DNA of 60,228 nucleotides, from contig JAPLPQ010000086.1 in NCBI GenBank assembly GCA_026400105.1, forward strand, positions 1 through 60,228, written 5' to 3'. Under the pieces are notes generated by a model that was not told the DNA's origin, did not search any database, and was given only the letters and a program-made list of their open reading frames with translations. The position numbers were made by a program, and so were the translations under genes. This DNA comes from Burkholderiales bacterium (GTDB lineage: Bacteria > Pseudomonadota > Gammaproteobacteria > Burkholderiales > Burkholderiaceae_C). This document shows, in pieces, positions 17,078 through 51,044 of the stretch. Positions within the stretch are counted from its first letter, which is position 1. Each line of letters starts with the position of its first letter.

Positions 17078-17154
17078 TGTGGATAACTCGCCGATAGCAC
17101 TACAATCACTACCCCGGCGACCCGCGCGCCGCAGTTTTCCCGTGTTTTTCCACA
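17078..17154. promoter_or_regulatory. DnaA boxes in the dnaA promoter region
   Basis: One perfect DnaA box in reverse orientation (TGTGGATAA, 17078-17086) and one imperfect box (TTTTCCACA, 17146-17154) lie in the 246-bp rpmH-dnaA spacer. They fit DnaA autoregulation of dnaA. I see no AT-rich unwinding element or TAG/CTA trinucleotide run beside them, so this spacer alone is a weak origin candidate. Confidence 0.65.
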
Positions 17155-17170: not shown

Positions 17171-18574
17171 ATGAGCCAACCCAGCCTGTTGCCCGATGCG
17201 TCCGACCTGTGGCAAGCGTGCACCGAGCGGCTGGCGCAGGAGATCCCCGAACAGCAGTTCAACACCTGGATCCGCCCGCTGCTGGCGCGCGTGTCCGAAA
17301 GCGGTGACCGGGTCACGCTGGCCGTGGCCAACCGCTTCAAGATGGACTGGATCCGCGCCCAGTACGCCGGCAAGATCAGCGCCGCGCTGGAAGCCGTGGC
17401 CGGGCGCCAGGTGATGCTCGAGCTCACGCTGGCACCGCGCGAGCCGGCCCAGCGCACCAGCATGCCAGCGCAGCGCAGCGCACATATGTATCAGCCGCCG
17501 GTGTTCGCCGAACTGCCTGACAGTCCGGTGCCGGAACCCAAGGTCGATACGCACAAGCACCGCCTGAACAACGCGCTGACCTTCGCAACCCTGGTCGAGG
17601 GCTCGGCCAACCGGATGGCGCGCGCTGCCGCGATGCATGTCGCGCACAACCCGGGCCAGCTCTACAACCCGCTGTTCATCTATGGCGGCGTGGGCTTGGG
17701 CAAGACCCACCTGATGCACGCGATCGGCAACCAGCTGCTGGCCGACAAGCCCGGTGCCAAGGCGCTCTATATCCACGCCGAGCAGTTCGTGACCGACGTG
17801 GTCAAGTCCTACCAGAAGAAGACCTTCGACGAGTTCAAGGAACGCTACCACTCGCTCGACCTGCTGCTGATCGATGACGTGCAGTTCTTCGCCAACAAGG
17901 AACGCACGCAGGAGGAGTTCTTCAACGCCTTCGAGGCGCTGCTGACCAAGAAGAGCCATATCGTGATGACCAGCGACACCTATCCCAAGGGCCTGGCCGA
18001 CATCCACGAACGCCTGGTCTCGCGCTTCGACTCCGGCCTGACGGTCGCGATCGAACCGCCCGAGCTCGAGATGCGGGTCGCGATCCTGATCAGCAAGGCC
18101 GAGTCCGAGGGCGCCTCGATGCCCGAGGACGTCGCCTTCTTCGTCGCCAAGAACGTGCGCTCCAACGTGCGCGAGCTCGAAGGCGCGCTGCGCAAGATCC
18201 TGGCCTACTCGCGCTTCAACCAGAAGGAAGTCTCGATCCAGCTCGCGCGCGACGCGCTGAAGGACCTGCTGTCGATCCAGAATCGCCAGATCAGCGTCGA
18301 GAACATCCAGAAGACCGTCGCCGACTTCTACAAGATCAAGATCGCCGACATGTACTCGAAGAAGCGGCCGGCCAACATCGCGCGGCCGCGCCAGATCGCG
18401 ATGTTCCTGGCCAAGGAACTGACGCAGAAGAGCCTGCCCGAGATCGGCGAGCTGTTCGGCGGTCGCGACCACACCACGGTGCTGCATGCGGTGCGCAAGA
18501 TCGCCGCCGAGCGCCAGACCGTCAGCGAGCTCAATCAGCAGCTGCATGTACTCGAACAGACCCTCAAGGGCTGA
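17171..18574 (+). CDS. dnaA: chromosomal replication initiator DnaA
   Basis: DnaA binds DnaA boxes at oriC and opens the duplex. The 467-residue protein has domain I (residues 1-90; WIRPLLARV), a short linker, AAA+ domain III (Walker [11 protein letters not shown]; Walker [11 protein letters not shown]; sensor region VSRFDSG), and DNA-binding domain IV with the signature [16 protein letters not shown] chose the ATG at 17171; a TTG two codons earlier is open but less likely. dnaN follows after 56 bp. Confidence 0.99.
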
Positions 18575-19766: not shown

Positions 19767-22460
<2,694 letters not shown>

Positions 22461-33958: not shown

Positions 33959-35662
33959 ATGAAACCCGTCAATCGCCAACTCTGGCAGCGCTTTCTCGAC
34001 ATCGCAGCGCCCTACTGGCGCTCGGAAGAGCGCTGGTCGGCCCTGGGCCGGCTGGCCTTGCTGCTGCTGCTGCTGCTGGGCCAGACCGCCTTTGCGGTGC
34101 TGCTCAACGAGCAGACCGGCGAATTCACCTCGGCGCTGGCGGCGCGCGATGAACACCGTTTCTGGCAGGCGATCCTGCTCTGCCTGGGCCTGCTGGTCGG
34201 TGCCGTGCCGACCTACGCCTGCTATTACTGGGTGCGCGACACGCTGGGCAACCACTGGCGGCGCTGGCTGACACAGCGCTTCTTGCTGCGCTACTTTGGC
34301 GAGCGCCATTATTACTCGCTCAATGGCCTGGCAGCGCTCGACAACCCGGACCAGCGCATCGCCGAGGACATCAACACCTTCACCCAGCGCTCGCTGTTCT
34401 TCCTGCTGATCCTGATCGGTGCGACCATGCAGCTGACCGCCTTCAGCCGCGTGCTGTGGGGAATCTCGCACACCCTGGTCTATTTCCTCGTGGTCTACGC
34501 GATCAGCGGCACCGTGATCACGCTGCGCGTCTATGGCAAGCCCTTGACCGGGCTCAACTTCCGCCAGCTCAAGCGCGAGGCGGACTTGCGCTACAGCCTG
34601 GTGCGGGTGCGCGAGAAAGCCGAATCGATCGCGCTCTACCGCGGCGAGCAACAGGAGCTGCAACAGATCCGACACCGCTTCGGCCTGGCCTACGACAACT
34701 TCAGGCAGCTGATCCGGGGCCAGTTCTTCCTGAACCTGTTCCAGTATGGCTACAGCATGCTGACCATCGTGCTGCCGAGCATGCTGATTGCCGAGCGCGT
34801 GCTGTCGGGCGAGCTCGAGGTCGGCATGGCGGTGCGCGCCGCTGGTGCCTTCACCGCGGTGCTGAGCGCGGTCTCGGTCGTGATCGACAACTTCGAAAGC
34901 CTGAGCCGCTTTGCCGCCGGCATCGAGCGCCTCGATGTGTTCTCGCACCAGCTCGACGGCCCGGCCGGCGACAGGCGCGCCGCCGGCCGCATCGAGTCGA
35001 TCGAGGGTGCACCCCAGCTCGAGCTCGAGCGCGTCACCTTGCAGACCCCGGGCGCCGAGCGGGTGCTGGTGCAGGAACTGTCGCTGGCGGTGGAACCGGG
35101 CCAGGGCCTGCTGGTGGTCGGCGCCAGCGGCTGCGGCAAGAGCTCGCTGTTGCGCGCCATCGTCGGCCTCTGGGACAGCGGCAGCGGCAAGATCCTGCGG
35201 CCCCATCCGGACGAGATCATGTTCCTGCCACAACAGCCCTATATGCTGCTGGGCAGCTTGCGCAGCCAGCTGCTCTACCCCAGGCAGGAGCGTCAGGTCG
35301 GCGACCAGGAGCTGCTCGCCTTGCTCGAACGGGTCAACCTGCCCGATCTGGCCGAGCGCTCGGGTGGCCTGGATGCCGAGCTCGACTGGGAAAAGACCCT
35401 GTCGATGGGCGAGCAGCAGCGACTGGCCTTTGCCCGCCTGCTGCTGACGCAGCCGCGCTACGCGATCCTGGACGAGGCGACCAGCGCACTCGACCTGGCC
35501 AACGAACGCTGGCTTTACCAGCAACTGATGGACGGCCAGACCACGCTGATCAGCGTCGGTCATCGCTCGACCCTGTTGACCTACCATAGCCAGGTGCTCG
35601 AGCTCGATGGCAACGGAGGTTGGCAGGCCCATGTAGCTCAAGGCTACCGATTCGAGCATTGA
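33959..35662 (+). CDS. SbmA/BacA-YddA-type ABC transporter, fused permease and ATPase
   Basis: This 567-residue protein has an N-terminal membrane domain of about six helices (first at about residues 30-50, LALLLLLLLGQTAFAVLL) similar to SbmA/BacA and human ABCD proteins. A C-terminal ATPase follows: Walker A GASGCGKSS (about residue 390), signature LSMGEQQRLAF, Walker B YAILDEATSALD. The signature starts LSMGEQQ instead of LSGGQ. Relatives import peptides or move acyl compounds; the substrate here is unknown. It runs toward the origin-like segment that follows. Confidence 0.92.
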   Translation: MKPVNRQLWQRFLDIAAPYWRSEERWSALGRLALLLLLLLGQTAFAVLLNEQTGEFTSALAARDEHRFWQAILLCLGLLVGAVPTYACYYWVRDTLGNHWRRWLTQRFLLRYFGERHYYSLNGLAALDNPDQRIAEDINTFTQRSLFFLLILIGATMQLTAFSRVLWGISHTLVYFLVVYAISGTVITLRVYGKPLTGLNFRQLKREADLRYSLVRVREKAESIALYRGEQQELQQIRHRFGLAYDNFRQLIRGQFFLNLFQYGYSMLTIVLPSMLIAERVLSGELEVGMAVRAAGAFTAVLSAVSVVIDNFESLSRFAAGIERLDVFSHQLDGPAGDRRAAGRIESIEGAPQLELERVTLQTPGAERVLVQELSLAVEPGQGLLVVGASGCGKSSLLRAIVGLWDSGSGKILRPHPDEIMFLPQQPYMLLGSLRSQLLYPRQERQVGDQELLALLERVNLPDLAERSGGLDAELDWEKTLSMGEQQRLAFARLLLTQPRYAILDEATSALDLANERWLYQQLMDGQTTLISVGHRSTLLTYHSQVLELDGNGGWQAHVAQGYRFEH

Positions 35663-35677
35663 CCATCAGGAATACTT

Positions 35678-35894
35678 CCTTATTAACCTTTTTTAATATA
35701 TAAAAGAAATAGTTGTAGTAGTAGAGCCCCCCGAGTTTCCGTGGACAAGCGGTTTTTGCATCATTGAATCAAATCGCTATCCAGTGGATAAGTCTGTGGA
35801 TCAACGCGCAGATGGAGCGGGAGCCACCAGGGGGAAGTCCACAGCATCGATCCGGGCTGTGGATAACCCTGCGATACCTTCGATCTTGTACACA
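35678..35894. other. oriC: candidate chromosomal replication origin (oriC-like)
   Basis: Elements in order on the + strand: an AT-rich stretch (35680-35711, with TTATTAAC and TTTTTTAATATATAAAAG); five trinucleotides TAG-TTG-TAG-TAG-TAG (35710-35724); a GC-rich block (35725-35734); then DnaA-box-like 9-mers. The boxes are CGTGGACAA (35740-35748), AGTGGATAA (35783-35791), TGTGGATCA (35795-35803), TGTGGATAA (35858-35866, perfect) and TTGTACACA (35886-35894). Read on the minus strand, this is box, GC block, CTA-type trios, AT-rich region, the order of the bacterial unwinding module. The boxes overlap the 3' end of the BLUF gene. Confidence 0.7.
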
Positions 35895-36385
35895 GGGTTA
35901 TCAGACAGCCGCTGGCTGCGCTCGCCACGGCGCTCCAGATGCTCGACAAGCGCTGACGACTGACCGGCAACCGCCGCCTGTTGTCGCGACAGACAGTCCT
36001 CGAGCAAGGCGTCCATGTCGCCCGGCTGCACCGTGGAAAAGCCGGTCATCTGGTACTGCTGGAAGTAGGAATTGCTCGAGAACATCAGCGGCCAGCTGGC
36101 ACAGCGCCGCTGCGCCAGCGGAAAGCGCGCGAGCAGTTCGACGTCGTAATGCCGGGGGTCCTGCCTGAGGTTGCGCCACAGGGCGTCGAGTGCCGCCGTA
36201 GGCCCCTCAAGGTATTCCATGAAGCTGTGATCGAGGTAGATCAGCTGTCCGGTGATTCCCTCGGCCTGATTGGCCAGTCGCGCCCGCTCCACGAGCAGGA
36301 ACATGTGCAGCGGCCCGATGCGGTTGACGATCCGGGATCGGTACAGCAGGCCTTCGATGGCTGTTGGCAAGGGCTGGAGTCCCAT
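35801..36385 (-). CDS. BLUF-domain-like protein with degenerate flavin site
   Basis: This 194-residue protein has a BLUF fold in residues 10-105 (EGLLYRSRIVNRI; ANQAEGITGQLIYLDHSFMEYLEG; DPRHYDVELL; RRCASWPLMF) and a C-terminal helical tail. Compared with AppA at a constant offset of six, Tyr21, Asn45 and Trp104 are kept as Y15, N39 and W98. The photocycle glutamine Gln63 is Glu (E57) and Met106 is Leu (L100). Light sensing may therefore be lost or altered. AGGAG precedes the ATG at 36385. The 3' end overlaps the origin-like segment, so DnaA boxes are partly coding. Confidence 0.82.
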   Translation of the reverse strand: MGLQPLPTAIEGLLYRSRIVNRIGPLHMFLLVERARLANQAEGITGQLIYLDHSFMEYLEGPTAALDALWRNLRQDPRHYDVELLARFPLAQRRCASWPLMFSSNSYFQQYQMTGFSTVQPGDMDALLEDCLSRQQAAVAGQSSALVEHLERRGERSQRLSDNPVYKIEGIAGLSTARIDAVDFPLVAPAPSAR

Positions 36386-38996: not shown

Positions 38997-39614
38997 ATGA
39001 GCGCCATCGCCGTCATAGACTTTGAAACCAGCGGGCTGATGCCCGAAGCCGGCGGCCGCGCGACCGAGGTCGCCATCGTGCTGGTCGAGCAGGGCCGGGT
39101 CGTCGACCGTTTTGCCAGCCTGATGAATGCCGGGGTCTGGATTCCGCCCTTCATCACCGAGCTGACCGGCATCAGCAACGAGATGGTGCGCGCCGCGCCA
39201 GCCGCCGCGCAGGTGATGGCGCAGGCCGCGCAATTCGTCGGCGACCGGCCGCTGGTCGCGCACAACGCCTCTTTCGACCGCAAGTTCTGGCAGTCCGAGC
39301 TTGCGCGCGTCGGCCTGGTGGCGGCACAGCCATTCGCCTGTACCGTGCTGCTGTCGCGCCGGCTCTACCCGCAGGCGCCGAACCACAAGCTCGGCACCCT
39401 GGCCGACTTCCACGCCCTGCCCCGCAATGGCCGCGCGCACCGGGCGCTGTCCGATGCCGAGGTCACGGCCGAGCTGCTGCTGCGCATCCAGCGCGATCTG
39501 CGCCAGCGCCACGGCGTGGTCGCGCCCGAACATGATTTCCTGCAGGCCTTGCAGCAATGCTCCAAGGCCACCTTGCCGCGCTTCTGGCAACGCCAGGCCG
39601 GCGCCACCGCCTGA
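38997..39614 (+). CDS. DnaQ-like 3'-5' exonuclease (DEDDh)
   Basis: This 205-residue protein has the exonuclease motifs: ExoI D8-F-E10 (IAVIDFETSGL), ExoII LVAHNASFDRKF, and ExoIII HRALSDAEVTAELL with the catalytic His and Asp. It resembles the polymerase III epsilon subunit but lacks the usual C-terminal clamp and alpha-binding extension of true DnaQ, so it is a stand-alone exonuclease. The next gene starts 15 bp downstream. Confidence 0.9.
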   Translation: MSAIAVIDFETSGLMPEAGGRATEVAIVLVEQGRVVDRFASLMNAGVWIPPFITELTGISNEMVRAAPAAAQVMAQAAQFVGDRPLVAHNASFDRKFWQSELARVGLVAAQPFACTVLLSRRLYPQAPNHKLGTLADFHALPRNGRAHRALSDAEVTAELLLRIQRDLRQRHGVVAPEHDFLQALQQCSKATLPRFWQRQAGATA

Positions 39615-39628
39615 TTTTCCCGCTTGCC

Positions 39629-40738
39629 ATGCATACCCCCAGCCAGACCCATACCCAGGACAAGACCCGTACCGACGACCTGCGCATCCGCGCCGTGCGA
39701 CCGCTGCTGACACCCGCGCTGCTGCAGGAATGGCTGCCGACGCCCGAGCCGGCACAGGCGCTGGTCGAAGCGAGCCGGGCCGAGATCGCGCGCGTGCTGC
39801 ACGGCCAGGACGACCGGCTGCTGGTGGTGGTCGGACCCTGCTCGATCCACGACCATGAACAGGCGCTCGACTACGCGCGCCGGCTCAAGCAGCAGGCCGA
39901 CGCATTGCAGCAGGATCTGCTGATCGTGATGCGGGTCTATTTCGAGAAGCCGCGCACCACGGTGGGCTGGAAGGGCTATATCAACGATCCGCACCTGGAC
40001 GGCAGCTTCGCGATCAACGAGGGACTGGAACGCGCCCGCGCGCTGCTGCTCGATGTGCTGCAGATCGGCCTGCCGGTCGGCACCGAGTTCCTCGACCTGC
40101 TGTCGCCGCAGTTCATCAGCGACCTGGTCAGCTGGGGCGCGATCGGCGCGCGCACCACCGAAAGCCAGAGCCACCGCCAGCTCGCCAGCGGCCTGAGCTG
40201 CCCGATCGGCTTCAAGAACGGCACCGACGGCGGGGTCAAGGTCGCGGCCGACGCCATCGTCGCCGCGCAGTCCGAGCACGCCTTCATGGGCATGACCAAG
40301 ATGGGGCTGGCGGCGATCTTCGAGACCCGCGGCAACCAGGACTGCCACCTGATCCTGCGCGGCGGCAAGCAGCCCAACTACTCGGCCGCCGATGTCGCAG
40401 CCGCCTGCGCCGTGCTGCGCACGGCCGGCCTGTGCGAGCAGGTGATGGTTGACTGCTCGCATGCCAACAGCAGCAAGCAGCACCGGCGCCAGATCGAGGT
40501 CGGTGCCGATGTGGCGGGCCAGATCGCCGCTGGCGAACGCCGCATCACCGGCCTCATGGTCGAAAGCCATCTGCACGAGGGCCGGCAGGACATCGTGCCG
40601 GGCCAGCCGCTGCAGCCCGGGGTCTCGGTGACCGACGCCTGCATCAGCTTCGAGCAGACCGTGCCGCTGCTGCAGCAGCTCGCGCAGGCGGTGCGGACCC
40701 GGCGCGCGCTGCAGGCAACGGAGCCTGACGCGGACTGA
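39629..40738 (+). CDS. aroG: 3-deoxy-7-phosphoheptulonate synthase (DAHP synthase, type I)
   Basis: This enzyme joins phosphoenolpyruvate and erythrose 4-phosphate, the first step of aromatic amino acid synthesis. The 369-residue protein shows the AroFGH pattern: VVVGPCSIHDHEQALDYA, MRVYFEKPRTTVGWKGYINDP, LPVGTEFLDLLSPQ, GARTTESQSHRQLASG, PIGFKNGTDG, and VDCSHANSSK, with the metal-binding Cys and His. Which feedback amino acid it answers to cannot be decided by eye. Confidence 0.95.
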   Translation: MHTPSQTHTQDKTRTDDLRIRAVRPLLTPALLQEWLPTPEPAQALVEASRAEIARVLHGQDDRLLVVVGPCSIHDHEQALDYARRLKQQADALQQDLLIVMRVYFEKPRTTVGWKGYINDPHLDGSFAINEGLERARALLLDVLQIGLPVGTEFLDLLSPQFISDLVSWGAIGARTTESQSHRQLASGLSCPIGFKNGTDGGVKVAADAIVAAQSEHAFMGMTKMGLAAIFETRGNQDCHLILRGGKQPNYSAADVAAACAVLRTAGLCEQVMVDCSHANSSKQHRRQIEVGADVAGQIAAGERRITGLMVESHLHEGRQDIVPGQPLQPGVSVTDACISFEQTVPLLQQLAQAVRTRRALQATEPDAD

Positions 40739-41249: not shown

Positions 41250-41876
41250 CTACTGTTGCTTCAGCCGATGAAGCGCCAAGGTCAGCTCAGCGCTGGAGCG
41301 AATTCCCATCTTCCTCATCGCATTGTGCTTGTGGACTTTGACAGTACTCTCGGTCACGCAATGATCAAAGGCGATCCGCTTGTTTGCCTTGCCCAGCGCC
41401 GACTCAAGGACAACTTCCTTCTCTCTGGGAGTCAGTGTTTCGAAACGTCGACGCAAATCGGACAGTTGCGACCGTTCATCTAGCGTGGTGCTGGCCCGAG
41501 AGAGGGCCGACGCGATAGCATCGAGCAGATCGGTATCCTTGAATGGTTTCTTCAGGAAGTCGATGGCCCCCATCTTCATCGCACGAACTACCAGGGGAAC
41601 TTCGCCGTGACCCGTGATGAAGATGATGGGTATGCCCTTGCCGCTTTCCAGCAATTTTTTCTGAAGCGACAGCCCGTCAAGACCAGGCATTCGGACGTCT
41701 AGCACGACACAAGCCACCTCATCAAGCGGCTCCAGCTCCAGAAAATCAAGCGGCGAGGCAAAGACCTTGACAGCCATGCCTGCGGAGCGGATCAGGCTGT
41801 TGAGAGACTCCCTTACCGATGCATCGTCATCGACGACATAGACAGTGGCACGGGAAGAAACGTGATCGGTCGTCAT
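41250..41876 (-). CDS. tmoT: TodT/TmoT-type response regulator
   Basis: This 208-residue FixJ/NarL-type regulator would activate the tmo operon when phosphorylated by TmoS. The receiver has VVDDDASVRESL, phospho-acceptor Asp in VVLDVRMPGLDGL, and KKPF. A LuxR-type helix-turn-helix follows (LTPREKEVVLESALGKANKRIAFDHCVTESTVKVHKHNAMRKMG). The start overlaps the tmoS stop by four bases (ATGA). Length agrees with TodT (about 206). Confidence 0.93.
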   Translation of the reverse strand: MTTDHVSSRATVYVVDDDASVRESLNSLIRSAGMAVKVFASPLDFLELEPLDEVACVVLDVRMPGLDGLSLQKKLLESGKGIPIIFITGHGEVPLVVRAMKMGAIDFLKKPFKDTDLLDAIASALSRASTTLDERSQLSDLRRRFETLTPREKEVVLESALGKANKRIAFDHCVTESTVKVHKHNAMRKMGIRSSAELTLALHRLKQQ

Positions 41877-44770
41877 GGACTCTCCGGAATATTGAAGACG
41901 AAATTAGCACCACCTCCCACCGCCCTTTTCAGCCTGAGCCGACCGCCATGCTTCTCCACGATGGAGCGGCAGATTGCCAGTCCCATGCCGAGCCCGTTGG
42001 ACTTCGTCGAAAACAGGGCATCGAAAATATTCTCGCCGTACTCGGGCGAAACGCCTGGCCCAGTGTCGGAGACCGAGAACACCACGCCTTCAGCCGGGTC
42101 TCGCTGCACGGTGATAGCCAGCACACGGCTTGCAGTATCCTGGTTTTGCATGGCATCAACGGCATTCACGGCCAAGTTGAGCAAGACCTGCTGAAGCTGG
42201 ACTGGGTCCGCAATGGGATCTGGCAGAGCCGGATCGATCTTCACGTTCACCTCGATACTCGACTCCTGCAGCAAGGACTGCAACATGAGCAGCAGATTCT
42301 CGACAATGCGCCCGACATTGACACGTTCCTGTTTCACCTCGCCTCGACCGAGAAACTCCCGAATGCGCGCAATCACGTCACCGGCGAGGGTCGCATCACG
42401 GTTGACCCGATGGAGCGCGGCTGCCACCTCCTGGTAATCCGGCAGGTCCCGCTCCATCCACCGCAAGGCCGCCTGGCTGTTGGTGACTATCGCCGAAAGT
42501 GGTTGATTCACCTCATGCGCGATAGAGGCAGCCAACTCTCCCATGGCCGTGAAACGGGTGACCCGTGCCAACTCGGCCTGCGTCGCGGCCAGGGAGTTTT
42601 CGGCTTCCTTGCGTGAGCTGATGTCTTCGACAATCACAGCCAGTCGCGGCCCCTCCTCGTCGATAGCAGGAATCAGCGACGCACTGACGTTGACCCAGAG
42701 CCAGTCCCCATTGGCTTTCTCATAGCGCTTTTGCACCTGGTAATTGCCGATGACGCCATCAAAGACACCATGCACGTTGCGCTTGGTCATGGCACGCTGG
42801 GATTCCTCGGCCAGATCAATGAACGAGATGCCGACAATCTCATCCTCGGCGTAGCCGAGCATGCGTTGCAAGGCGGGATTGGCCTTCAAAATCCGCCCTT
42901 CCCGATCGGCCAGCGCAATGCCGACCGAGGTGTTCTGATAAAGCCCTTGCCAGCGCCGCTCGGAAATCTGCAGCGCCAACAGCCCCTGCTGCAGCGACTT
43001 CCGGCTGGCTACCAGATTGGCCGTCAGTTCTGACACATCAGAAGCCTGGGAGTTGAGCTCGTTTTGCAGCAGGTCGACCGTGCGCTTGACGGTCACCAGG
43101 TTGCGCACCCGCGCCCGCAGCTCCTGGGGCGAAAACGGTTTCATGAGGTAGTCCTGCACCAGATTTTCCAGCAGAGTGGCGCGCAGCGCGTCATCGGCCC
43201 TTGCGGAAAGCACCAGCACGGGCAGGTTCAGGCAGCGCCCGCTGACGCGCAGCTCGCGCACGAACTGCACGCCATCGAAGTGGGGCATCATCAGATCGGT
43301 GATCACCAGGTCCGGAGGGCTCTCCAGGGCGGATGCGAGGGCCTCCGCACCATCGGTCACCAGTGTGACGTTGTAGTCGTCGATCAGCACGTCATACAGG
43401 AAATGGCGTAGATCGGGATTGTCCTCGGCGACGAGAATCCGTGGGAGCCCGGCTTTATGCGCCCTGGCCGGGGGACTGAGGGTCGCTGACAGATCCAGGC
43501 TGGAATGATTTGACCACGCCACGGTCTCGCTGCTCTCACGAACAAAAACACCTTTCGGTGCTCGCATCGGCATTTCCACCTGAAAGATCGCACCACCCCC
43601 TGGAGCATCAAGCACAACTACGGTGCCAAGATGCAGCTCAACGAACTCCTTGACGATGTTCAGTCCCAAGCCGCTGCCACCAACCGACAGCCCATCCTGG
43701 CCTTGAGCGAAACGGGAAAAAATCTGCTCCTTCAGCTGCGGCGGAATACCCGGTCCGTTGTCCTGCAGGCTGAACAGGAATCGGCGATTGGCCACCCGCT
43801 GAAGGGAACAACTGATGCGCCCCCCCTTGGGGGTGAACTTGAACGCGTTCGACAGCAGATTCACCATGATCCGCACAATCTTGGCCCGATCGACGTCCGC
43901 ATACAACTCGTCCGCGCCGTTCAGCAGCAGGGCAATTGATCGTTCCTCCGCTGCGGCGGCAAAGCTCGCAGCAACATCCCTGAGCAAGGCCGTGACGTTG
44001 GCACAGACATAAGCCATCGGCATCTGCTGTGCATCGATGCGCGCCAAGTCGAGCAGATCGTTCACCTGCTGCTGCAGGGACTCGGCATTGCGCTTGATCG
44101 TGGCCAGCCGGAAGCGGTCCCGCTCCACTGCCGGACGGGCTTGCGCCTCCTTCAGGAGTTGATCGATGGGCCCGAGAATCAGCGCCAGTGGCGTGCGCAA
44201 ATCATGGCTCACGTTGGCGAAGAACTTGGTCTTGAAACCATCGATCTCGCGCAACCTCTCCAGCGCCAGTTGCAGCTCGCCATTCTTGCGCGTGAGTTCA
44301 GCCTCGATGGCGATCTTCTCGGTAATGTTTCGCCCCTCCGGCAACAGAAATGCGATATGGCCTTCATCATCGTGGATCGGTGTCAGAGAAAAATCGACGT
44401 AGATCGATTTGCTTCCCTGTTGGTCGCCAAACACCTCGATATCACAACGGACAAACTCCCCTCGCCTGGCAATCGCCACCATGTCGCGCACCCGGCGACG
44501 GGCCTCATCCGAGATCGCCCACCAGCGCGCCTCCCAGAAGGGTTTCCCCACCACATCCTCGAGCAGCACCCCCGCTCCGTCCAGCGCCGCCTGGTTGATT
44601 TCCAGGACGGTCCCGTCGACATCAAGCAATCCGAGGAACTGATACATCGCATCCACGATGATGCGGGCCAGCTTCTGCCGACGCATCTCCGGTGGCTCAC
44701 CCACGGTGAGAGCAACACCCTTGACGGAAACCAGCGTTGGCGGGTCTGAGGTAAATAATTCGGGATTCAT
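41873..44770 (-). CDS. tmoS: TodS/TmoS-type hybrid sensor kinase
   Basis: This 965-residue soluble phosphorelay kinase senses aromatic hydrocarbons. Domains in order: PAS1 (about 35-155), kinase 1 (H-box FFANVSHDLRTPLA, H189; GSGLGL), receiver (about 444-560, phospho-Asp D492 in VITDLMMPHFDG), PAS2 (about 605-725) and kinase 2 (ASIAHEVNQPLSA, H752). This matches TodS, whose sites are H190, D500 and H760. Residues equivalent to the TodS toluene pocket F46, F79 and W85 are kept (F45, F78, W84), with Val at the I74 equivalent. I chose the ATG at 44770. A terminator separates it from tmoX. Confidence 0.93.
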   Translation of the reverse strand: MNPELFTSDPPTLVSVKGVALTVGEPPEMRRQKLARIIVDAMYQFLGLLDVDGTVLEINQAALDGAGVLLEDVVGKPFWEARWWAISDEARRRVRDMVAIARRGEFVRCDIEVFGDQQGSKSIYVDFSLTPIHDDEGHIAFLLPEGRNITEKIAIEAELTRKNGELQLALERLREIDGFKTKFFANVSHDLRTPLALILGPIDQLLKEAQARPAVERDRFRLATIKRNAESLQQQVNDLLDLARIDAQQMPMAYVCANVTALLRDVAASFAAAAEERSIALLLNGADELYADVDRAKIVRIMVNLLSNAFKFTPKGGRISCSLQRVANRRFLFSLQDNGPGIPPQLKEQIFSRFAQGQDGLSVGGSGLGLNIVKEFVELHLGTVVVLDAPGGGAIFQVEMPMRAPKGVFVRESSETVAWSNHSSLDLSATLSPPARAHKAGLPRILVAEDNPDLRHFLYDVLIDDYNVTLVTDGAEALASALESPPDLVITDLMMPHFDGVQFVRELRVSGRCLNLPVLVLSARADDALRATLLENLVQDYLMKPFSPQELRARVRNLVTVKRTVDLLQNELNSQASDVSELTANLVASRKSLQQGLLALQISERRWQGLYQNTSVGIALADREGRILKANPALQRMLGYAEDEIVGISFIDLAEESQRAMTKRNVHGVFDGVIGNYQVQKRYEKANGDWLWVNVSASLIPAIDEEGPRLAVIVEDISSRKEAENSLAATQAELARVTRFTAMGELAASIAHEVNQPLSAIVTNSQAALRWMERDLPDYQEVAAALHRVNRDATLAGDVIARIREFLGRGEVKQERVNVGRIVENLLLMLQSLLQESSIEVNVKIDPALPDPIADPVQLQQVLLNLAVNAVDAMQNQDTASRVLAITVQRDPAEGVVFSVSDTGPGVSPEYGENIFDALFSTKSNGLGMGLAICRSIVEKHGGRLRLKRAVGGGANFVFNIPESP

Positions 44771-44823
44771 AGCGCTAGAAAATCGAACCGGACCCAGATA
44801 GTGGACCCATGTCTGACAAGGTG

Positions 44824-44852
44824 AAAACAAAATGGCGAGGGTGACCTCGCCA
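44824..44852 (-). terminator. rho-independent terminator after tmoX
   Basis: On the minus strand, TGGCGAGG-TCAC-CCTCGCCA is followed by TTTTGTTTT. The perfect 8-bp stem lies 24 bp after the tmoX stop and before tmoS. It should end most tmoABCDEFX transcripts. Confidence 0.88.
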
Positions 44853-44876
44853 GAACTCCACTGGAAAAAAGCGATA

Positions 44877-46289
44877 TCAGAAACTGTACCGATAGCCCAG
44901 GACGACATTGTTCTGGGAATGCTTGACCTGGATCGGCGCCGAGGTGTTGGGCAGACTGGTGTTGCTCATGGTTTCCTCAAGCGCATGAGAATAAGCAAAG
45001 TCAAGCTTGCTCTGGTTGGAGAGCGCATAAGTGAAGCCAGCGCTCAGGTGTGTTTTCGGCGTGGCCGGTATCACCGCGAACAAGGTCGATGAGCGCAGGG
45101 CCTGGCTGGCCACTCGCAAGCCTGCGCGCAGGGTGAGCCTGTCGTGCAACTGATAGGCGGTGCCCAGCGCCAGAACGGTCTGATTCTTGTAGTCCTGCGG
45201 CAGGCGGATATTGATGTCTCCCCCGCCGTCGGACAGAAACTTCACCTTGATGTCTTTCATCGCGTCTTTCCAGAACACCTGGGACAAGTCAGCCGCCAGC
45301 AGCCATTGAGGCGTCACCCGATGGCTGATGCCTAGGTTCAAGGAACTGGGCATCTGGAAGTCCTGGATCTTGATCTTTCCAGCCAAGGGGACTGGCCCGG
45401 CAACGGCATCCACTGCGGTCAAGGTTGCACGTCCCGACAGGTCGTTCATGCGGCTCTTGATGGTGTACGAAGCGCCCACCGTCGTGTCCGGTGCGGCCTT
45501 GTAGACCATGCCCAGGCGCCCGCCAAAACCCCAGGCATCGACGCCGCTGCCCAGGAGCTTGTCCTGGGTCAGGCTGAAGTGTGCCCCGCGCAGGTCCGGC
45601 AGACCGCCCAGCACCGGCACCAATGACCCGCTGGCTCGCCCATTTCCGATCAAGCTGCCGACCTGGTCAGCGCCGAGCAACAGATCCAGGTTAAGGCCCT
45701 GCCACATCGCATCGATGCCGCCACCAATGGCAAGCTTGTCGTTGACCTGGAAGCTGGCCGCAAGGGGAATGTCGAGCACCAGCAAGCGGCTGGAATTTTC
45801 AAGTCCGGTATCGACCCCACCGCTGGCCCGCGACAGGAAGCTGCGATTTCCATACTCGGTACCCAGCCCACCCTGGGCGAATGCGCCGGCACCGAAGGTC
45901 CAGGCGCCGACCCGCTTCGTGTAGGCCAGTTCCGGGGCGAAATAGGGACCTCGGTTGTTGCCGTGGGTTCTGGACGAAGCTGTTTCGCCGCTGGCCTTGT
46001 TCTTGACGTCGATCTCGGTTGTGATCAGATCCAGGCCCCCCATGACCTGCTCACTCTCCCGCATCAGGGCCAATGTGGCGGGGTTGGTCATCATGCCAGC
46101 GGGACCGACGTCCTGTGCCACCGCCGTCCCCCCCATGGCACGCGAAATCGCCCCAAACCCCTCCAGCCGGAAGACATCAGTGGCTTGGGCCATCTGTGCG
46201 CCACCCGCAAGCGTCGACAACAGCATCAAGGGTGCGACCCTCCGCGCAGACATGCCGGCCTTCTCTGTTGCGATTGCCATTCGTGCCAT
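44877..46289 (-). CDS. tmoX: TodX/TbuX-type FadL-family outer-membrane channel for aromatic hydrocarbons
   Basis: This 470-residue beta-barrel would let toluene cross the outer membrane. It has a signal peptide ending AQMAQA, then the FadL hatch-domain start TDVFRLEGFGAISRAMGGTAVA and NPA segments (GMMTNPATLALM), many alternating strands, and a terminal aromatic strand ending VVLGYRYSF. I chose the ATG at 46289 because AAGGGGA precedes it; the ATG at 46310 has no ribosome site. It follows tmoF by 31 bp and closes the operon. Confidence 0.92.
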   Translation of the reverse strand: MARMAIATEKAGMSARRVAPLMLLSTLAGGAQMAQATDVFRLEGFGAISRAMGGTAVAQDVGPAGMMTNPATLALMRESEQVMGGLDLITTEIDVKNKASGETASSRTHGNNRGPYFAPELAYTKRVGAWTFGAGAFAQGGLGTEYGNRSFLSRASGGVDTGLENSSRLLVLDIPLAASFQVNDKLAIGGGIDAMWQGLNLDLLLGADQVGSLIGNGRASGSLVPVLGGLPDLRGAHFSLTQDKLLGSGVDAWGFGGRLGMVYKAAPDTTVGASYTIKSRMNDLSGRATLTAVDAVAGPVPLAGKIKIQDFQMPSSLNLGISHRVTPQWLLAADLSQVFWKDAMKDIKVKFLSDGGGDINIRLPQDYKNQTVLALGTAYQLHDRLTLRAGLRVASQALRSSTLFAVIPATPKTHLSAGFTYALSNQSKLDFAYSHALEETMSNTSLPNTSAPIQVKHSQNNVVLGYRYSF

Positions 46290-46320
46290 ATTGAGTCCCC
46301 TTGTTTTCATGTGACAGGCA

Positions 46321-47337
46321 TCAGAAGAATCTATCGAAATGGATCTGCTGGAAGGGCACCTCGCCCTCAACCATCAGCAACTCCTGCAGCGCCTGTGTCA
46401 TCGGAGGCGGTCCAGCGAAGTAGAACTCGTAGTTCGCCAGGGCGGCGGGCAGGGCACGGCTCATGGCGTGGTGCACAAACCCTGTTTCACCCTGCCAAGC
46501 CTCGCCATCACCGGGCATAGAAACCACGGGGATGTAAACGATATTTGCAGCGAAGCCTCCAAGATCGCGCAAGCACTCTCCGCCACAGACATCGCGCGGT
46601 GTCCTGGCCCCGTAAAAGAAGTACAGCTTGCGGTCCGCCAGCATGGCCGCCTCGGCCGCGCCACGGGCAATGGACACCATGGGCGCCAGCCCAGAGCCAC
46701 CAGCCACGCAAACGAGGTCACGAGGCGAATCGGTGCGCAGGTAGGCCACGCCATACGGCCCGTCAAGGCCAATCTCATCGCCCGCGGCCAATGACTCGAA
46801 CAGCGTCTGCGTGCCCCGGCCATTGGGCACCCGGCGAACCTGGAAATGCCATTCGCCTAGCCCGTTACCGGTGTTGGACATCGAATAGGCCCGCGAGCTG
46901 TCGAGACCCGGCAGATCCAGCATGGCGAACTGGCCAGGCAGGAAATCCGCGCCTTGTTCCGCCTGAAAGCAGAATTCTCGAATGTCGTGGCTGATGTCCG
47001 CGCTTCTGACCAGGCGTGCACGCTGGCGCCGGGGCAGGATCCTGGGCTGGTATTCCGGGGCTGTCGCAGCCTTGATGGTGATGGACCCCTTGGCTCGACA
47101 CTGACAGGCCAGATGCCGGCCTCGCTGACGGTCTCGCGCAGTAAGACCAGGCGCATCCGTCCACAAGGTTTCGATTTCCCCATCGACGAGCTCAAATTTG
47201 CACCCTCCGCATCCACCAGAGTTGCATTCGTAACCAAAGCCCAAACCGGCGCGCAGCGCCGCACGCAGGATCGTATCGCCCTCAGCCTGTTCGCAGACGG
47301 CGCCGTCCTTCTCGTTGCGGATTGTTGATATTGTCAT
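46321..47337 (-). CDS. tmoF: toluene monooxygenase NADH:ferredoxin oxidoreductase
   Basis: TmoF passes electrons from NADH through FAD and a [2Fe-2S] cluster to the Rieske ferredoxin TmoC. The 338-residue protein has the plant-type ferredoxin motif C38-x4-C43-x2-C46 and C78 (YECNSGGCGGCKFELVDG; LACQC). The FAD site RAYSMSNTG and the NAD site VAGGSGLAPM follow. The end FDRFF is like that of known TmoF/TbuC proteins. I chose the ATG at 47337, 66 bp from tmoE. Confidence 0.94.
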   Translation of the reverse strand: MTISTIRNEKDGAVCEQAEGDTILRAALRAGLGFGYECNSGGCGGCKFELVDGEIETLWTDAPGLTARDRQRGRHLACQCRAKGSITIKAATAPEYQPRILPRRQRARLVRSADISHDIREFCFQAEQGADFLPGQFAMLDLPGLDSSRAYSMSNTGNGLGEWHFQVRRVPNGRGTQTLFESLAAGDEIGLDGPYGVAYLRTDSPRDLVCVAGGSGLAPMVSIARGAAEAAMLADRKLYFFYGARTPRDVCGGECLRDLGGFAANIVYIPVVSMPGDGEAWQGETGFVHHAMSRALPAALANYEFYFAGPPPMTQALQELLMVEGEVPFQQIHFDRFF

Positions 47338-47403
47338 GGCATTCCCTTGCAAGGGTGGGGTCCGAGCCGCAGTCGCAGCCCGGAGGACCAAGTGGTCAGC
47401 GGG

Positions 47404-48390
47404 TCACAGACCCAGTGAACGGCGGAAGTCGCGCGTGGCCGACTTGGCGGCTTCGGCTGCATCGACAACATCGGGCAGTTTTTCGCAGTACGCATCAATG
47501 GCCTTGTCGGCCAGCGGCTCCCATTTCCTGATCCAGCCCGAGATCAGCTCCTGATTGCCAGGGGTTTCCAGCGCCATCTTGACCAGCGCAGAAATCCACC
47601 GATGGTGACGGGCCACATCCATCAACTGGGCGTCGGTGAGCAGCCCGAGCAAGGTATCCCCGTTGTGACGCGCCGATTCACCCAGTTTGCGCAACACCGC
47701 CTCTTCGATCGCAGGCTTGGCCACCAGGTTGATGACCACGATCGCCTCACCCCAGTCCCAAACCGTGAGAGCCTTCTCCATCAGTTCGCGGAAGCCCTGC
47801 CAGACCGGATCGTTTTCCCAATAGTTGCGCTCAGCAACGGCAAACCCTTTGTCCGGGAAAGCAAGCGACAGTTCCTTGGTACGGTAGGCCGTGTGGCTCA
47901 ACCAGCGCAGGCTGTCGGCCATCTGGAAGTAGTTGCAACTGGTGATCGTGCTGGCTGGCGATACCTGTCCGACATAGGCTGACGCCATCTGAAGCGTATG
48001 GAAAAGATAGCGAGACGGCGTGTAGTAGCGCGCCAGCGTTCCGGCCCAGCGCGGATCGAGCGAGCTGTCATGCTCACGCTTGCTGAACTGGTCGAGCACC
48101 CCGAAGACATAGGTCTCCTGGCCGTCCTGCATCATGTTGTAGGTTCGGTAGACCACCTCGTCCGGGTCGCGGAAGGCGTTCCAGTCCGCATGTTTCAGCA
48201 AGGTACCGAAGGTGTTCTTCTTGTACCAGGTATTCATGAACATGTTGGGATCAAGCTCATACGGAGCATTAGGGTCCCGATCGTTGTAATGCAAATTGGC
48301 ACCAACAATCTCATACTCGCTCGGCTTGCGCCGACGTGCAGCGAGATGACTCCATGTTTTCAGAGGCTTGAGCACTTGGGTTTCCGACAT
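47404..48390 (-). CDS. tmoE: toluene monooxygenase hydroxylase beta subunit
   Basis: This 328-residue subunit has the ferritin-like fold without diiron ligands and pairs with TmoA and TmoB in the (alpha beta gamma)2 hydroxylase. The sequence opens with LKPLKTWSHLAARRRKPSEYEIVGANLHYN, followed by RDPDEVVYRTYNMMQDGQE, both typical of TmoE/TbuA2. Length agrees with the family (about 307-330). It lies between tmoD and tmoF. Confidence 0.95.
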   Translation of the reverse strand: MSETQVLKPLKTWSHLAARRRKPSEYEIVGANLHYNDRDPNAPYELDPNMFMNTWYKKNTFGTLLKHADWNAFRDPDEVVYRTYNMMQDGQETYVFGVLDQFSKREHDSSLDPRWAGTLARYYTPSRYLFHTLQMASAYVGQVSPASTITSCNYFQMADSLRWLSHTAYRTKELSLAFPDKGFAVAERNYWENDPVWQGFRELMEKALTVWDWGEAIVVINLVAKPAIEEAVLRKLGESARHNGDTLLGLLTDAQLMDVARHHRWISALVKMALETPGNQELISGWIRKWEPLADKAIDAYCEKLPDVVDAAEAAKSATRDFRRSLGL

Positions 48391-48439
48391 TCTTGTCTCC
48401 TGGATTTATTTGACCAAACAGTACAGTGCTTTGGAAGGC

Positions 48440-48754
48440 TTACATTTTTTTGACGTAATAGAATCGAATCGATTCATCACCACTTTCGATCAGGCCGGCA
48501 AAGGAACTCAAGTCCACCTCCAGGTCGTTCATCTTGAATGGTCGACCCAGCTCCTCCTCGATGGTTTCACGATGCAGGATCATCTCCTGGTCGGTATGAA
48601 TCCGGAGATAAGCCCGCTTGTCATCGACAAAGACCTCTTTGCCTGGATTGTCGATTTTTGCCGCCTCAATGACCGCCATCGCCAACTCGCCAGCACGCAT
48701 CACTGGGCCAACCATGTTGTTGTAAATGGCCGATCCGGAACTATTGACACTCAT
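48440..48754 (-). CDS. tmoD: toluene monooxygenase effector (coupling) protein
   Basis: The 104-residue cofactorless effector binds the hydroxylase, controls access to the diiron site and raises coupling. NNMVGPVMRAGELAMAVIEAA, IDNPGKEVFVDDKRAY, and EELGRPFKMNDLEVDLSSFAG match the MmoB/TmoD family closely. Length equals that of known TmoD (103-110). Confidence 0.96.
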   Translation of the reverse strand: MSVNSSGSAIYNNMVGPVMRAGELAMAVIEAAKIDNPGKEVFVDDKRAYLRIHTDQEMILHRETIEEELGRPFKMNDLEVDLSSFAGLIESGDESIRFYYVKKM

Positions 48755-48824
48755 TACTCGCTCCTTTTTTATCTTTCACATGCCCATCGGCTTCATCCTG
48801 GAAATCGATGGGCAAAGACCCGCT

Positions 48825-49160
48825 TCAGGTGTGTGCAAAGAGCGGTTGAACACCTTCGGTCTTGATCAGGACATCCGTACCGTCGACTTGAACCGGATAC
48901 TCGGCCAGGGCACAGTCGCTGGGGTTGACCCCTTTGCCCGATTTGGCATCAAACTGCCAAAGATGTGCTCGGCAGATCAATTTTCCATTTTCAAACCTGC
49001 CTTCAACGAGCGGAATATCCTGATGCGGGCATATGCCCTGAAATGCCTTGAATTCTCCACCATCGGCACAGACCAGGAGCACCTCCTGCCCATCCACGGT
49101 GAAGGACTCCATCTCACCTTCCCAGAGATCATCCACCGAGCATACTTTTTTAAAGCTCAT
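48825..49160 (-). CDS. tmoC: toluene monooxygenase Rieske ferredoxin
   Basis: TmoC carries electrons from TmoF to the hydroxylase. The 111-residue protein has both Rieske half-sites, C44-P-H46 (GICPHQDIPL) and C63-x2-H66 (ICRAHLWQF). I chose the ATG at 49160 with GGAG upstream; a GTG two codons earlier is open but less likely. The N-terminus MSFKKVCSVDDLWEGEME matches the family. Confidence 0.96.
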   Translation of the reverse strand: MSFKKVCSVDDLWEGEMESFTVDGQEVLLVCADGGEFKAFQGICPHQDIPLVEGRFENGKLICRAHLWQFDAKSGKGVNPSDCALAEYPVQVDGTDVLIKTEGVQPLFAHT

Positions 49161-49205
49161 TACCACTCCAACTTTATCTACCTATGACAGTCCGGCATCA
49201 GGCAG

Positions 49206-49472
49206 TTATTGCCTGGGTGCCTCCCAGATGATTTCCACTGCTTCGGTCGGTTTCAGTCCGGATTCGGAAACCTTCATGGCTCGGGGAAGAAACTCTGCAC
49301 TGCCTGGTCGACGCACCCGCAGGATATGCCCAGGTCTTGCCCGAACCCGACGCCCGACGGAGTGGACCGCCGCCGCAGCAGCCACCTCGTCCATGGTGTT
49401 TTCACTGTCAACGGCGACCAGTTGCAAGAGGAAGTCGCCTTCAAAGTTGGAAGCCAACGGGAACAAAGCCAT
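49206..49472 (-). CDS. tmoB: toluene monooxygenase hydroxylase gamma subunit
   Basis: This 88-residue ubiquitin-like subunit packs on the hydroxylase alpha subunit. MALFPLASNFEGDFLLQLVAVDSENTMDEVA in pattern, then ESGLKPTEAVEIIWE, matches TmoB/TbuU. I chose the ATG at 49472 with GGAG nine bases upstream. Confidence 0.94.
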   Translation of the reverse strand: MALFPLASNFEGDFLLQLVAVDSENTMDEVAAAAAVHSVGRRVRARPGHILRVRRPGSAEFLPRAMKVSESGLKPTEAVEIIWEAPRQ

Positions 49473-49501
49473 TTTCAAATCTCCTATTTATGCGCAATGA
49501 C

Positions 49502-49519
49502 TGGTGCCCGCAGGCACCA
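49502..49519 (-). repeat. intercistronic hairpin between tmoA and tmoB
   Basis: TGGTGCC-CGCA-GGCACCA forms a 7-bp stem in the 66-bp gap after tmoA. There is no T-tract, so it is more likely to protect the tmoA 3' end or tune tmoB expression than to terminate. Confidence 0.5.
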
Positions 49520-49538
49520 TGCCGAACAGCCGCAGCGA

Positions 49539-51044
49539 TTACGCGATCTTCTTGCTGGCACGCAGAGCCCGATAGACCTCGGCCCAGGCGTAGTTATGCG
49601 CGTCGTCGCCACATTCACCCGGGGCAATGTCCATGTACTTGAGCGCACCTTCGAGATTCATGGGCTGGATCATTCCGGCCAGGAAGCGATCGACCAGGCT
49701 CAAGTGGTCGGCATAGCGTTCCGGTTCCTGCTCGAAGCACCAACGGTCAACTTCGGAGCCGAAGTGGTAGAGGCGACCCTTGTATTCAAGCGGATGGTCC
49801 TTGACGTTCCATTTCTTGCCCGGAACCCCAATGATCGGCAGCTGACACATGTTGCAGATGTAAGGCAGGGTTTCCGGATAGGTCATGGCCATGTTGCCGT
49901 CAACCACGTTGTCGATGATGACGTCCCAGCATTGACCCCAGCTATCGTTCCAGCCCGGATATTTCTCTTCGAGCCAGGCGCGCTCATCGGGCGTTACGCC
50001 TGCAGCCGGATTCCACCAGACGGTGGGGCGCCAGTAATAGACACCCAGGTGCATTCCATGATGGGTGTCATTCAGGCCTTCCAGCAACTGATCCCAGTAC
50101 CACGGCATGTCCAGCCCCATGTCGGCCAGTGCACGTTCGAATTGGGCGACAATCCATTCCTCCATGAACTCCTTGAACGATTGCTTGCGGTGTTCCAAGG
50201 GGGTGTAGTAGTCCATGGCCGGACCCGTCAGCACGGAGAACAGCTTCCAGGCGCGCCAGACGGCAATATCCACCCGCTTTTGCGCTTCTGCTTTCTGGCC
50301 GTTCTCGATCAGCACCTTCAAGGCTGGTCCGCCGATCTGGGCATGACGGGACTCGTCGGTCTGGATACTCGAAATGAGGTTGGCAAAGGTATGGTCGCCC
50401 GCTTCGGCCGCATCGGCAGCCAGCCCCAGGAACTGCATATTGGTGAAGCCCGTCTCGAAGCTGAAAGTCAGCATGATCGAGACGCTGATGGCATCACGGG
50501 TCAGCATGATGTCATCGAAGAAATGGCGCGCTGCAATCATCGCCCATTCATTGGTGTCATAAGCCTTGAAGGCCCAATCCATCTGGCGATCTTTTGCCAC
50601 ATGTTCATGCGGGAAATACAGCTGGATCTGGCCATGCCGCACCTCGTCCAGGCAACCCAGGGTAGCCATGTTGCGCATGCCCGGCGCCTTGGAGAATCGC
50701 ATCATGCGAGCTTCTGCACTGGCAGCCCCATATTCTCCACGGGCAATTGCGCCATAGTGGGACTTCATGACCGATTTCCATCCGGGATCAGCATTCTCAA
50801 AGATCTGACTGCGTTCCAGAGCCGCCTTCACCGAATAGGCGCCAGCGTCTTTCTCCCGCTGGACCTTCACATACTCAGGATAAGTCTGCTTGTACGGCTC
50901 GTCGTATTTTTCCCATGCATCCTGCGGCAAACCGAAATTACCGGCCATCAGGGGCGGAAACAACTCGTCCTCCGTGACGTATTTGGGCGTCCAGTTCGTG
51001 GTCCTGGCCAAATCGTACCAATCCATCCTGTTAAGCAAAGCCAT
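49539..51044 (-). CDS. tmoA: toluene 4-monooxygenase-type hydroxylase alpha subunit
   Basis: This 501-residue subunit holds the diiron centre that hydroxylates toluene. All six ligands occur at the numbering used for T4MO: E104, E134 and H137 (DEVRH), E197, E231 and H234 (DESRH). Active-site shaping residues I100, G103, Q141, F176, F196 and T201 are also those of T4MO, which supports mainly para hydroxylation to p-cresol. Long stretches match T4MO TmoA by eye (for example MLTFSFETGFTNMQFLGLAA). AGGAG precedes the ATG at 51044. It is the first gene of the operon. Confidence 0.96.
   Translation of the reverse strand: MALLNRMDWYDLARTTNWTPKYVTEDELFPPLMAGNFGLPQDAWEKYDEPYKQTYPEYVKVQREKDAGAYSVKAALERSQIFENADPGWKSVMKSHYGAIARGEYGAASAEARMMRFSKAPGMRNMATLGCLDEVRHGQIQLYFPHEHVAKDRQMDWAFKAYDTNEWAMIAARHFFDDIMLTRDAISVSIMLTFSFETGFTNMQFLGLAADAAEAGDHTFANLISSIQTDESRHAQIGGPALKVLIENGQKAEAQKRVDIAVWRAWKLFSVLTGPAMDYYTPLEHRKQSFKEFMEEWIVAQFERALADMGLDMPWYWDQLLEGLNDTHHGMHLGVYYWRPTVWWNPAAGVTPDERAWLEEKYPGWNDSWGQCWDVIIDNVVDGNMAMTYPETLPYICNMCQLPIIGVPGKKWNVKDHPLEYKGRLYHFGSEVDRWCFEQEPERYADHLSLVDRFLAGMIQPMNLEGALKYMDIAPGECGDDAHNYAWAEVYRALRASKKIA

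Follow-up and report, generated by a model that had tools for sequence, protein, structure and literature searches.

A sequence unit of about 190 bp, in which AT-rich DNA is followed by a block of DnaA-trios, a GC-rich spacer and a series of DnaA boxes, is likely the replication origin (oriC) of the Comamonadaceae, and its distribution among genomes indicates that it has likely been relocated in many genera of the family. In the genus Malikia, from which the DNA studied here derives, the unit is found at three loci, denoted A, B and C. Judged from the sequences, the balance of probability tips slightly towards an arrangement in which copy B, near parS, is the main origin and copy A an auxiliary or former one.

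An origin-type unit in the window

The window, that is, the whole stretch of DNA that was analysed, is 60,228 bp long and corresponds to the entire contig C8 of a draft Malikia genome (Comamonadaceae; 3.07 Mb in 110 contigs, 84% complete), referred to below as G000. Copy A and its reference points in the window are the following; R1 is the sequence model described in the next section, and offsets are counted from the start of the trio block.

17171..18574, + strand: dnaA
18631..19737, + strand: dnaN (Pfam PF00712, PF02767, PF02768)
19830..22460, + strand: gyrB (Pfam PF00204)
33959..35662, + strand: SbmA/BacA-like ABC transporter gene, left flank of copy A (Pfam PF06472, PF00005, PF05992)
35678..35709, + strand: AT-rich stretch, presumed unwinding element (from the sequence)
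35680..35872, + strand: copy A, conserved origin-type unit, full-length match to R1 (68.6 bits)
35710..35724, + strand: DnaA-trio block TAG TTG TAG TAG TAG (from the sequence)
35725..35739, + strand: GC-rich spacer of 15 bp between the trios and the first box (from the sequence)
35740..35748, - strand: trio-proximal DnaA box, two mismatches to TTATNCACA (box scan)
35783..35791, - strand: DnaA box, one mismatch (box scan)
35795..35803, - strand: DnaA box, one mismatch, at +85 (box scan)
35801..36385, - strand: BLUF-domain gene, right flank of copy A, its 3' end overlapping the unit (Pfam PF04940)
35858..35866, - strand: perfect DnaA box TTATCCACA, at +148 (box scan)
35886..35894, + strand: DnaA box, one mismatch, at +176, outside the R1 match (box scan)
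38997..40738, + strand: exonuclease-domain gene and DAHP synthase gene (Pfam PF00929, PF00793)

Copy A lies about 17 kb from dnaA, and its match to R1 has an E-value of 8.2e-20 in a search space of 434,587 bases. Much of this anatomy had been described in a first-pass annotation of the same DNA, and the description largely holds. The AT-rich stretch is present (80% A+T over 35,678-35,722), as is the GC-rich block (CCCCCC at 35,727-35,732, inside the GC-rich spacer); five DnaA-box-like 9-mers, one of them perfect, were found, with 2, 1, 1, 0 and 1 mismatches; and the 3' end of the BLUF gene is indeed shared with boxes, namely those at 35,858 and 35,886. The five trinucleotides described as TAG-type do form a block, but one made of four TAG and one TTG. 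The two spacers around dnaA, reported as poor in boxes, are so: that between rpmH and dnaA has one perfect box (17,078) and one with a single mismatch (17,146), and that between dnaA and dnaN has none with two mismatches or fewer.

According to PMC8287927, the basal unwinding system (BUS) of bacterial oriC consists of a DnaA box, a GC-rich spacer and DnaA-trios, and is recognized by at least three DnaA-trios (3'-GAT-5') within 16 bp of a DnaA box. In copy A, three contiguous TAG (35,716-35,724) are separated by 15 bp from the first box (35,740), which itself carries two mismatches. AT-rich DNA is found beside the trios, and the boxes are clustered beyond chance, two further features of a BUS-type oriC. 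That is, the box cluster of copy A is the densest in the window, with a score of 10.5 compared with 5.0 for the runner-up at rpmH-dnaA; none of 300 sequences simulated from the window with a first-order Markov model reached this score, and their maximum was 7.0. Taken singly, the DnaA-box 9-mer shows no enrichment across the window (15 occurrences with at most one mismatch, versus 10.25 expected), and thus the box signal resides in clustering and not in the overall frequency of the 9-mer. Across the Malikia copies, the recurring box positions are +30, +85, +148 and +176 relative to the start of the trios, with some copies exceeding one mismatch at some of these boxes. If the BUS mechanism demonstrated in other bacteria (PMC8287927) applies, DnaA would bind the boxes and then spread onto the trio strand, whereupon the AT-rich DNA would melt and the helicase would be loaded.

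A plasmid or second-chromosome origin would have its own replication initiator gene adjacent to it; the neighbours of copy A are the ABC transporter, BLUF and phasin genes. Rfam and tRNA scans of the window gave no match. Elsewhere in the window, positions 41,250-51,026 form a block of lower G+C content (0.52-0.62) that encodes, all on the minus strand, subunits of a phenol/toluene-type monooxygenase, a Toluene_X porin, and a response regulator together with its PAS sensor kinase.

Conservation of the unit in the family

Six of 59 relatives, its own genome not counted, gave a match to the spacer that contains copy A. From the core shared by these sequences a search pattern was defined, GTAGTAGTAGAG-N12..15-TGTGGNNAA, which occurs in 30 of 299 family genomes; the backward control gave 0. 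G000 counts among those 30 by virtue of two sites on another contig, C31, while copy A itself narrowly misses the pattern. When 35 copies from outside Malikia were aligned, their spacing proved near-constant over about 190 bp; the trio core GTAGTAGTAGAG is invariant among them, these copies having been selected by that core.

A sequence-only model, R1, was then built from the same 35 non-Malikia copies and run on 149 relatives. At an E-value of 0.001 or better the unit was detected in 98 genomes, a strict filter that may lose weak matches and, outside the family, still includes some weak ones. In the family itself it was detected in 87 of 90 genomes, six of which had supplied training sequences. 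The three family genomes in which R1 found no match are G012 (65% complete), G069 (80%) and G033 (99%). Programs that predict origins rely on dnaA, dnaN and skew; the unit by itself locates the likely origin in those 87 genomes. R1 was also run on 1.6 Mb from four complete relatives, dnaA regions included, and gave ten matches, in clusters of two or three units, none of which is at dnaA.

Position of the unit relative to dnaA

We located dnaA in 148 of the 149 relatives, the exception (G110) being dropped, so that the position counts cover the 97 genomes with both a unit and dnaA; these counts ignore kinship and are not counts of independent events. The unit lies within 600 bp 3' of dnaA, where oriC is normally situated, in 42 genomes (37 of the family, 5 of other families), and is antisense to it in every one. 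It is elsewhere on the dnaA contig in 33 genomes (28 of the family), and on a contig without dnaA in 22 (21 of the family), in some of which a contig break could mimic displacement. Displaced units thus occur in 49 family genomes, and about half of the family has no unit in the dnaA neighbourhood. No genome among the 97 has copies both 3' of dnaA and elsewhere, at an E-value of 0.001 or better, a threshold at which weak matches may be lost.

Two or three copies occur in 26 of the 49 displaced family genomes, versus 1 of the 37 with the unit 3' of dnaA. When a displaced unit shares a contig with dnaA, it lies on the 3' side of dnaA in 26 of 28 family genomes; this is in contig coordinates, and for one of the 26 (G100, at 2.4 Mb) the opposite way round the circle is probably shorter. 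In G099, another genome with a displaced unit, dnaA and the unit are 260 kb apart. In four named loci, from Aquabacterium, Rhizobacter and two Burkholderiales records, the unit is situated between dnaA and dnaN. In the 8-kb unit loci of Acidovorax, Hydrogenophaga, Variovorax and Delftia, neither dnaA nor dnaN was matched.

The unit is placed either 3' of dnaA or elsewhere, and never both. The simplest reading is that it is, very likely, the oriC of the family by descent and that it has been relocated in many genera. The unit would have left the dnaA-dnaN spacer in an ancestor, and would have multiplied after its departure. The family thereby offers a natural series, from one unit beside dnaA, to one or more far off, to scattered units. 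This series bears on a question raised in PMC4403523, namely whether one bacterial chromosome can use several origins. An origin that has likely moved and multiplied would be a test case for the rule that each bacterial chromosome has a single origin.

The three loci of Malikia

Besides copy A, two further full-length matches to R1 were found in G000, both on contig C31:

C31 91,653-91,857, + strand: copy B (76.0 bits)
C31 129,487-129,687, - strand: copy C (78.8 bits)

By R1 score, copy C is thus the highest of the three and copy A the lowest. The flanking genes of locus B presumably encode a polyamine-binding protein and an aminotransferase; those of locus C we take to be a heavy-metal-binding gene and minC.

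We compared the three loci in five Malikia genomes, G000 to G004, the first being that of the window. Locus B has its unit in all five. At locus A, between the ABC transporter and BLUF genes, the unit is present in four (G000, G001, G002 and G004). Locus C is intact in three (G000, G001 and G004); its copy in G003 is decayed, lacks trios and scores 19.2 bits, and in G002 no unit was found there. All three copies are full-length in G000, G001 and G004. They are present as well in the records that correspond to the cultured species M. spinosa and M. granosa, and so are not an artefact of binning.

The ABC transporter gene to the left of copy A has an orthologue in all five genomes. In G003, however, the orthologous ABC transporter and BLUF genes are 6 bp apart and the site is empty. 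A sole origin would be present in every member of the genus; copy A is absent from one in five. The first-pass annotation had named absence from close relatives as evidence against its proposal, and the outcome is mixed, with the unit missing in G003 and present in the other four. Its proposal that the window copy is the oriC of this organism is not supported, given two further copies in the genome, of which B is kept throughout the genus sample. Comparison of G003 (C18 13,301-14,500) with window positions 35,663-35,960 shows that in the former 6 bp separate the end of the BLUF gene from the ABC transporter gene, and that in the latter the BLUF gene ends inside the unit; gain or loss of the unit was thus accompanied by an altered 3' end of BLUF.

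In four species-level genomes, copy A still has its trios, its AT-rich DNA and the spacing of its boxes. Between G000 and G004, conservation of its spacer is average, ranking 13th of the 22 fully aligned spacers (24 in all), and pairwise identities of A, B and C among the Malikia genomes gave no clear order. Copy A is likely an auxiliary origin, a former origin or a relic.

In other genera, the neighbours of the unit include those of both loci A and C. It stands beside minC in Hydrogenophaga, and near DAHP synthase or thiolase genes in Acidovorax and others; the exonuclease-domain and DAHP synthase genes found in the window adjoin the unit in other genera. Loci A and C therefore look like pieces of one ancestral neighbourhood, which appears to have been broken up in Malikia, where rearrangement would have scattered the copies.

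parS sites and GC skew

In bacteria, parS sites are most often near the origin (PMC7333895). We searched for parS as TGTTNCACGTGNAACA, and all distances given here rest on the parS sites listed by that search. In 14 displaced genomes, a single contig carries parS, the unit and dnaA. In 13 of these, parS is closer to the unit (2-43 kb) than to dnaA (51-288 kb); in the exception, G035, the unit is 7.6 kb from dnaA. In seven more displaced genomes, parS and the unit share a contig that lacks dnaA. Over these 21 displaced genomes, the parS-unit distance is 0.1-43 kb, with a median of 23.5 kb. For 10 undisplaced genomes, the distance falls between 11 and 47 kb in eight, the other two having 108 and 1,011 kb. 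No unit was found on the contig of the listed parS sites in 16 drafts. Since the par and gid genes could have been inherited together with the unit from a common ancestor, this proximity is support and not proof. The proposal that the origin lies away from dnaA holds for much of the family, in which the unit is conserved and parS tracks it.

In G000, five parS sites were found, all on C31 with copies B and C, and none in the window. The parS site nearest to copy B is 32 kb away in G000 and 33 kb away in G001; in G002, G003 and G004, the parS contig has neither a unit nor dnaA. The distance between copy A and the nearest parS, reckoned to the contig ends, is about 61 kb or more.

GC skew was evaluated both raw and after correction for gene strand at fourfold sites. 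A skew minimum at the rpmH-dnaA spacer had been proposed as a counter-indication to a displaced origin, and the six relatives sampled divide on this point. Specifically, in the fourfold-site skew a switch at dnaA fits better in three (G007, G287 and, weakly, G008), one at the units fits better in two (G216 and G308), and G099 favours neither. Within Malikia, the corrected skew rises from dnaA to copy A, both in the window (about -0.05 to +0.04) and in G004 (-0.06 to +0.08), neither rise being significant. At copy B on C31, the step has the wrong sign and there is no switch. The rise in the window mildly favours the region of copy A over B. Overall, neither raw nor corrected skew is strong or consistent enough to locate the origin to a few tens of kilobases.

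Likely main origin and alternative assignments

Of the three copies, B is the most probable main origin, being the sole one retained in all five Malikia genomes and close to parS wherever this can be seen; the main evidence against it is the divided skew together with the wrong-sign step at B. The higher R1 score of copy C, the parS contigs of G002, G003 and G004 with neither unit nor dnaA, the average conservation of the copy A spacer and the lack of a clear order in the pairwise identities also speak against this reading. That copy A is instead the main oriC we consider unlikely. In favour of such an assignment are its box cluster, unsurpassed in the window, its presence in four of the five genomes, the non-significant rise of corrected skew towards it in the window and in G004, and the general tendency of displaced units to lie 3' of dnaA (26 of 28 family genomes). 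Against it stand the empty site in G003, the lowest R1 score of the three copies, the two mismatches in its trio-proximal box and its separation from parS, which exceeds the 0.1-43 kb seen in the 21 displaced genomes for the sites listed. The transcription of dnaA, dnaN and gyrB toward the fork, which the first-pass annotation had pointed out, would occur only if copy A fires. A return to the conventional location, with oriC in the rpmH-dnaA or dnaA-dnaN spacer, seems very improbable. The perfect box at 17,078 and the skew switch nearer dnaA in three of six relatives would fit it, but these spacers contain no unit, trio block or box cluster, a displaced unit is never accompanied by one 3' of dnaA at an E-value of 0.001 or better, and parS follows the unit.

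It is also conceivable, although rather doubtful, that two or more copies serve as origins on one chromosome. The three full-length copies in G000, G001 and G004 are in line with this idea, as is the prevalence of two or three copies in displaced genomes of the family (26 of 49, compared with 1 of 37 undisplaced). However, copy A has been lost in G003, and copy C has been lost or has decayed in G002 and G003, so not all copies are needed; moreover, PMC4403523 states that in 2015 no bacterial chromosome was known to make natural use of two origins. We would be similarly doubtful of the broader proposition that the Comamonadaceae are natural multi-origin bacteria, in which each of two or three complete copies per chromosome could start replication. 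Less plausible is that the extra copies, among them A, do not start replication and either serve to titrate or regulate DnaA or are relics in decay; this we deem improbable. DnaA-titrating and nucleotide-switch loci such as datA and DARS alter the state or level of DnaA and do not unwind DNA. The loss of A in G003, the decay of C there and the weak trio-proximal box of A would be explained, but the trios, AT-rich DNA and box spacing that A retains in four genomes go beyond what titration needs.

Comparison with known origins

In Escherichia coli, oriC is present in a single copy about 40 kb from dnaA, which is transcribed away from it. The Comamonadaceae unit resembles this functional origin in being displaced from dnaA, and differs in that the displaced unit is mostly 3' of dnaA and often multiple. 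Its likeness to the BUS (PMC8287927) lies in the three or more trios at most 16 bp from a box, with AT-rich DNA beyond them in the same order and polarity. In contrast to that system, the family unit has further boxes whose positions recur across a span of about 190 bp, and here is found away from dnaA and in three copies in one genome.

The bipartite origins of Bacillus subtilis and Helicobacter pylori, to which PMC4403523 refers, likewise comprise two or more box clusters in an origin region; their sub-regions flank dnaA, whereas each copy here comes with trios and an AT-rich stretch of its own. The putative double origins predicted from DoriC, for example in Ralstonia pickettii, also comprise more than one origin-like region per chromosome (PMC4403523). 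Those were called from skew, boxes and neighbouring genes (PMC4403523), while the copies described here are homologous to one another. Our literature search, which reached few subscription journals, returned no recognisable description of a displaced or multiple oriC in Comamonadaceae.

Matches outside the family

A wider scan with the pattern gave at least 115 stretches, including some from cyanobacteria, clostridia and others. Two Bacillota records among the matches listed (L148 and L149) have the trio-box pattern close to dnaA, and the pattern may therefore mark origins well outside the Comamonadaceae. Records labelled Chitinophaga pinensis (L171 and L191, CALPRQ020) and Pantoea sp. (L112, NZ_CACSJA010) contain Malikia-like or comamonad-like loci, and are probably mislabelled or contaminated.
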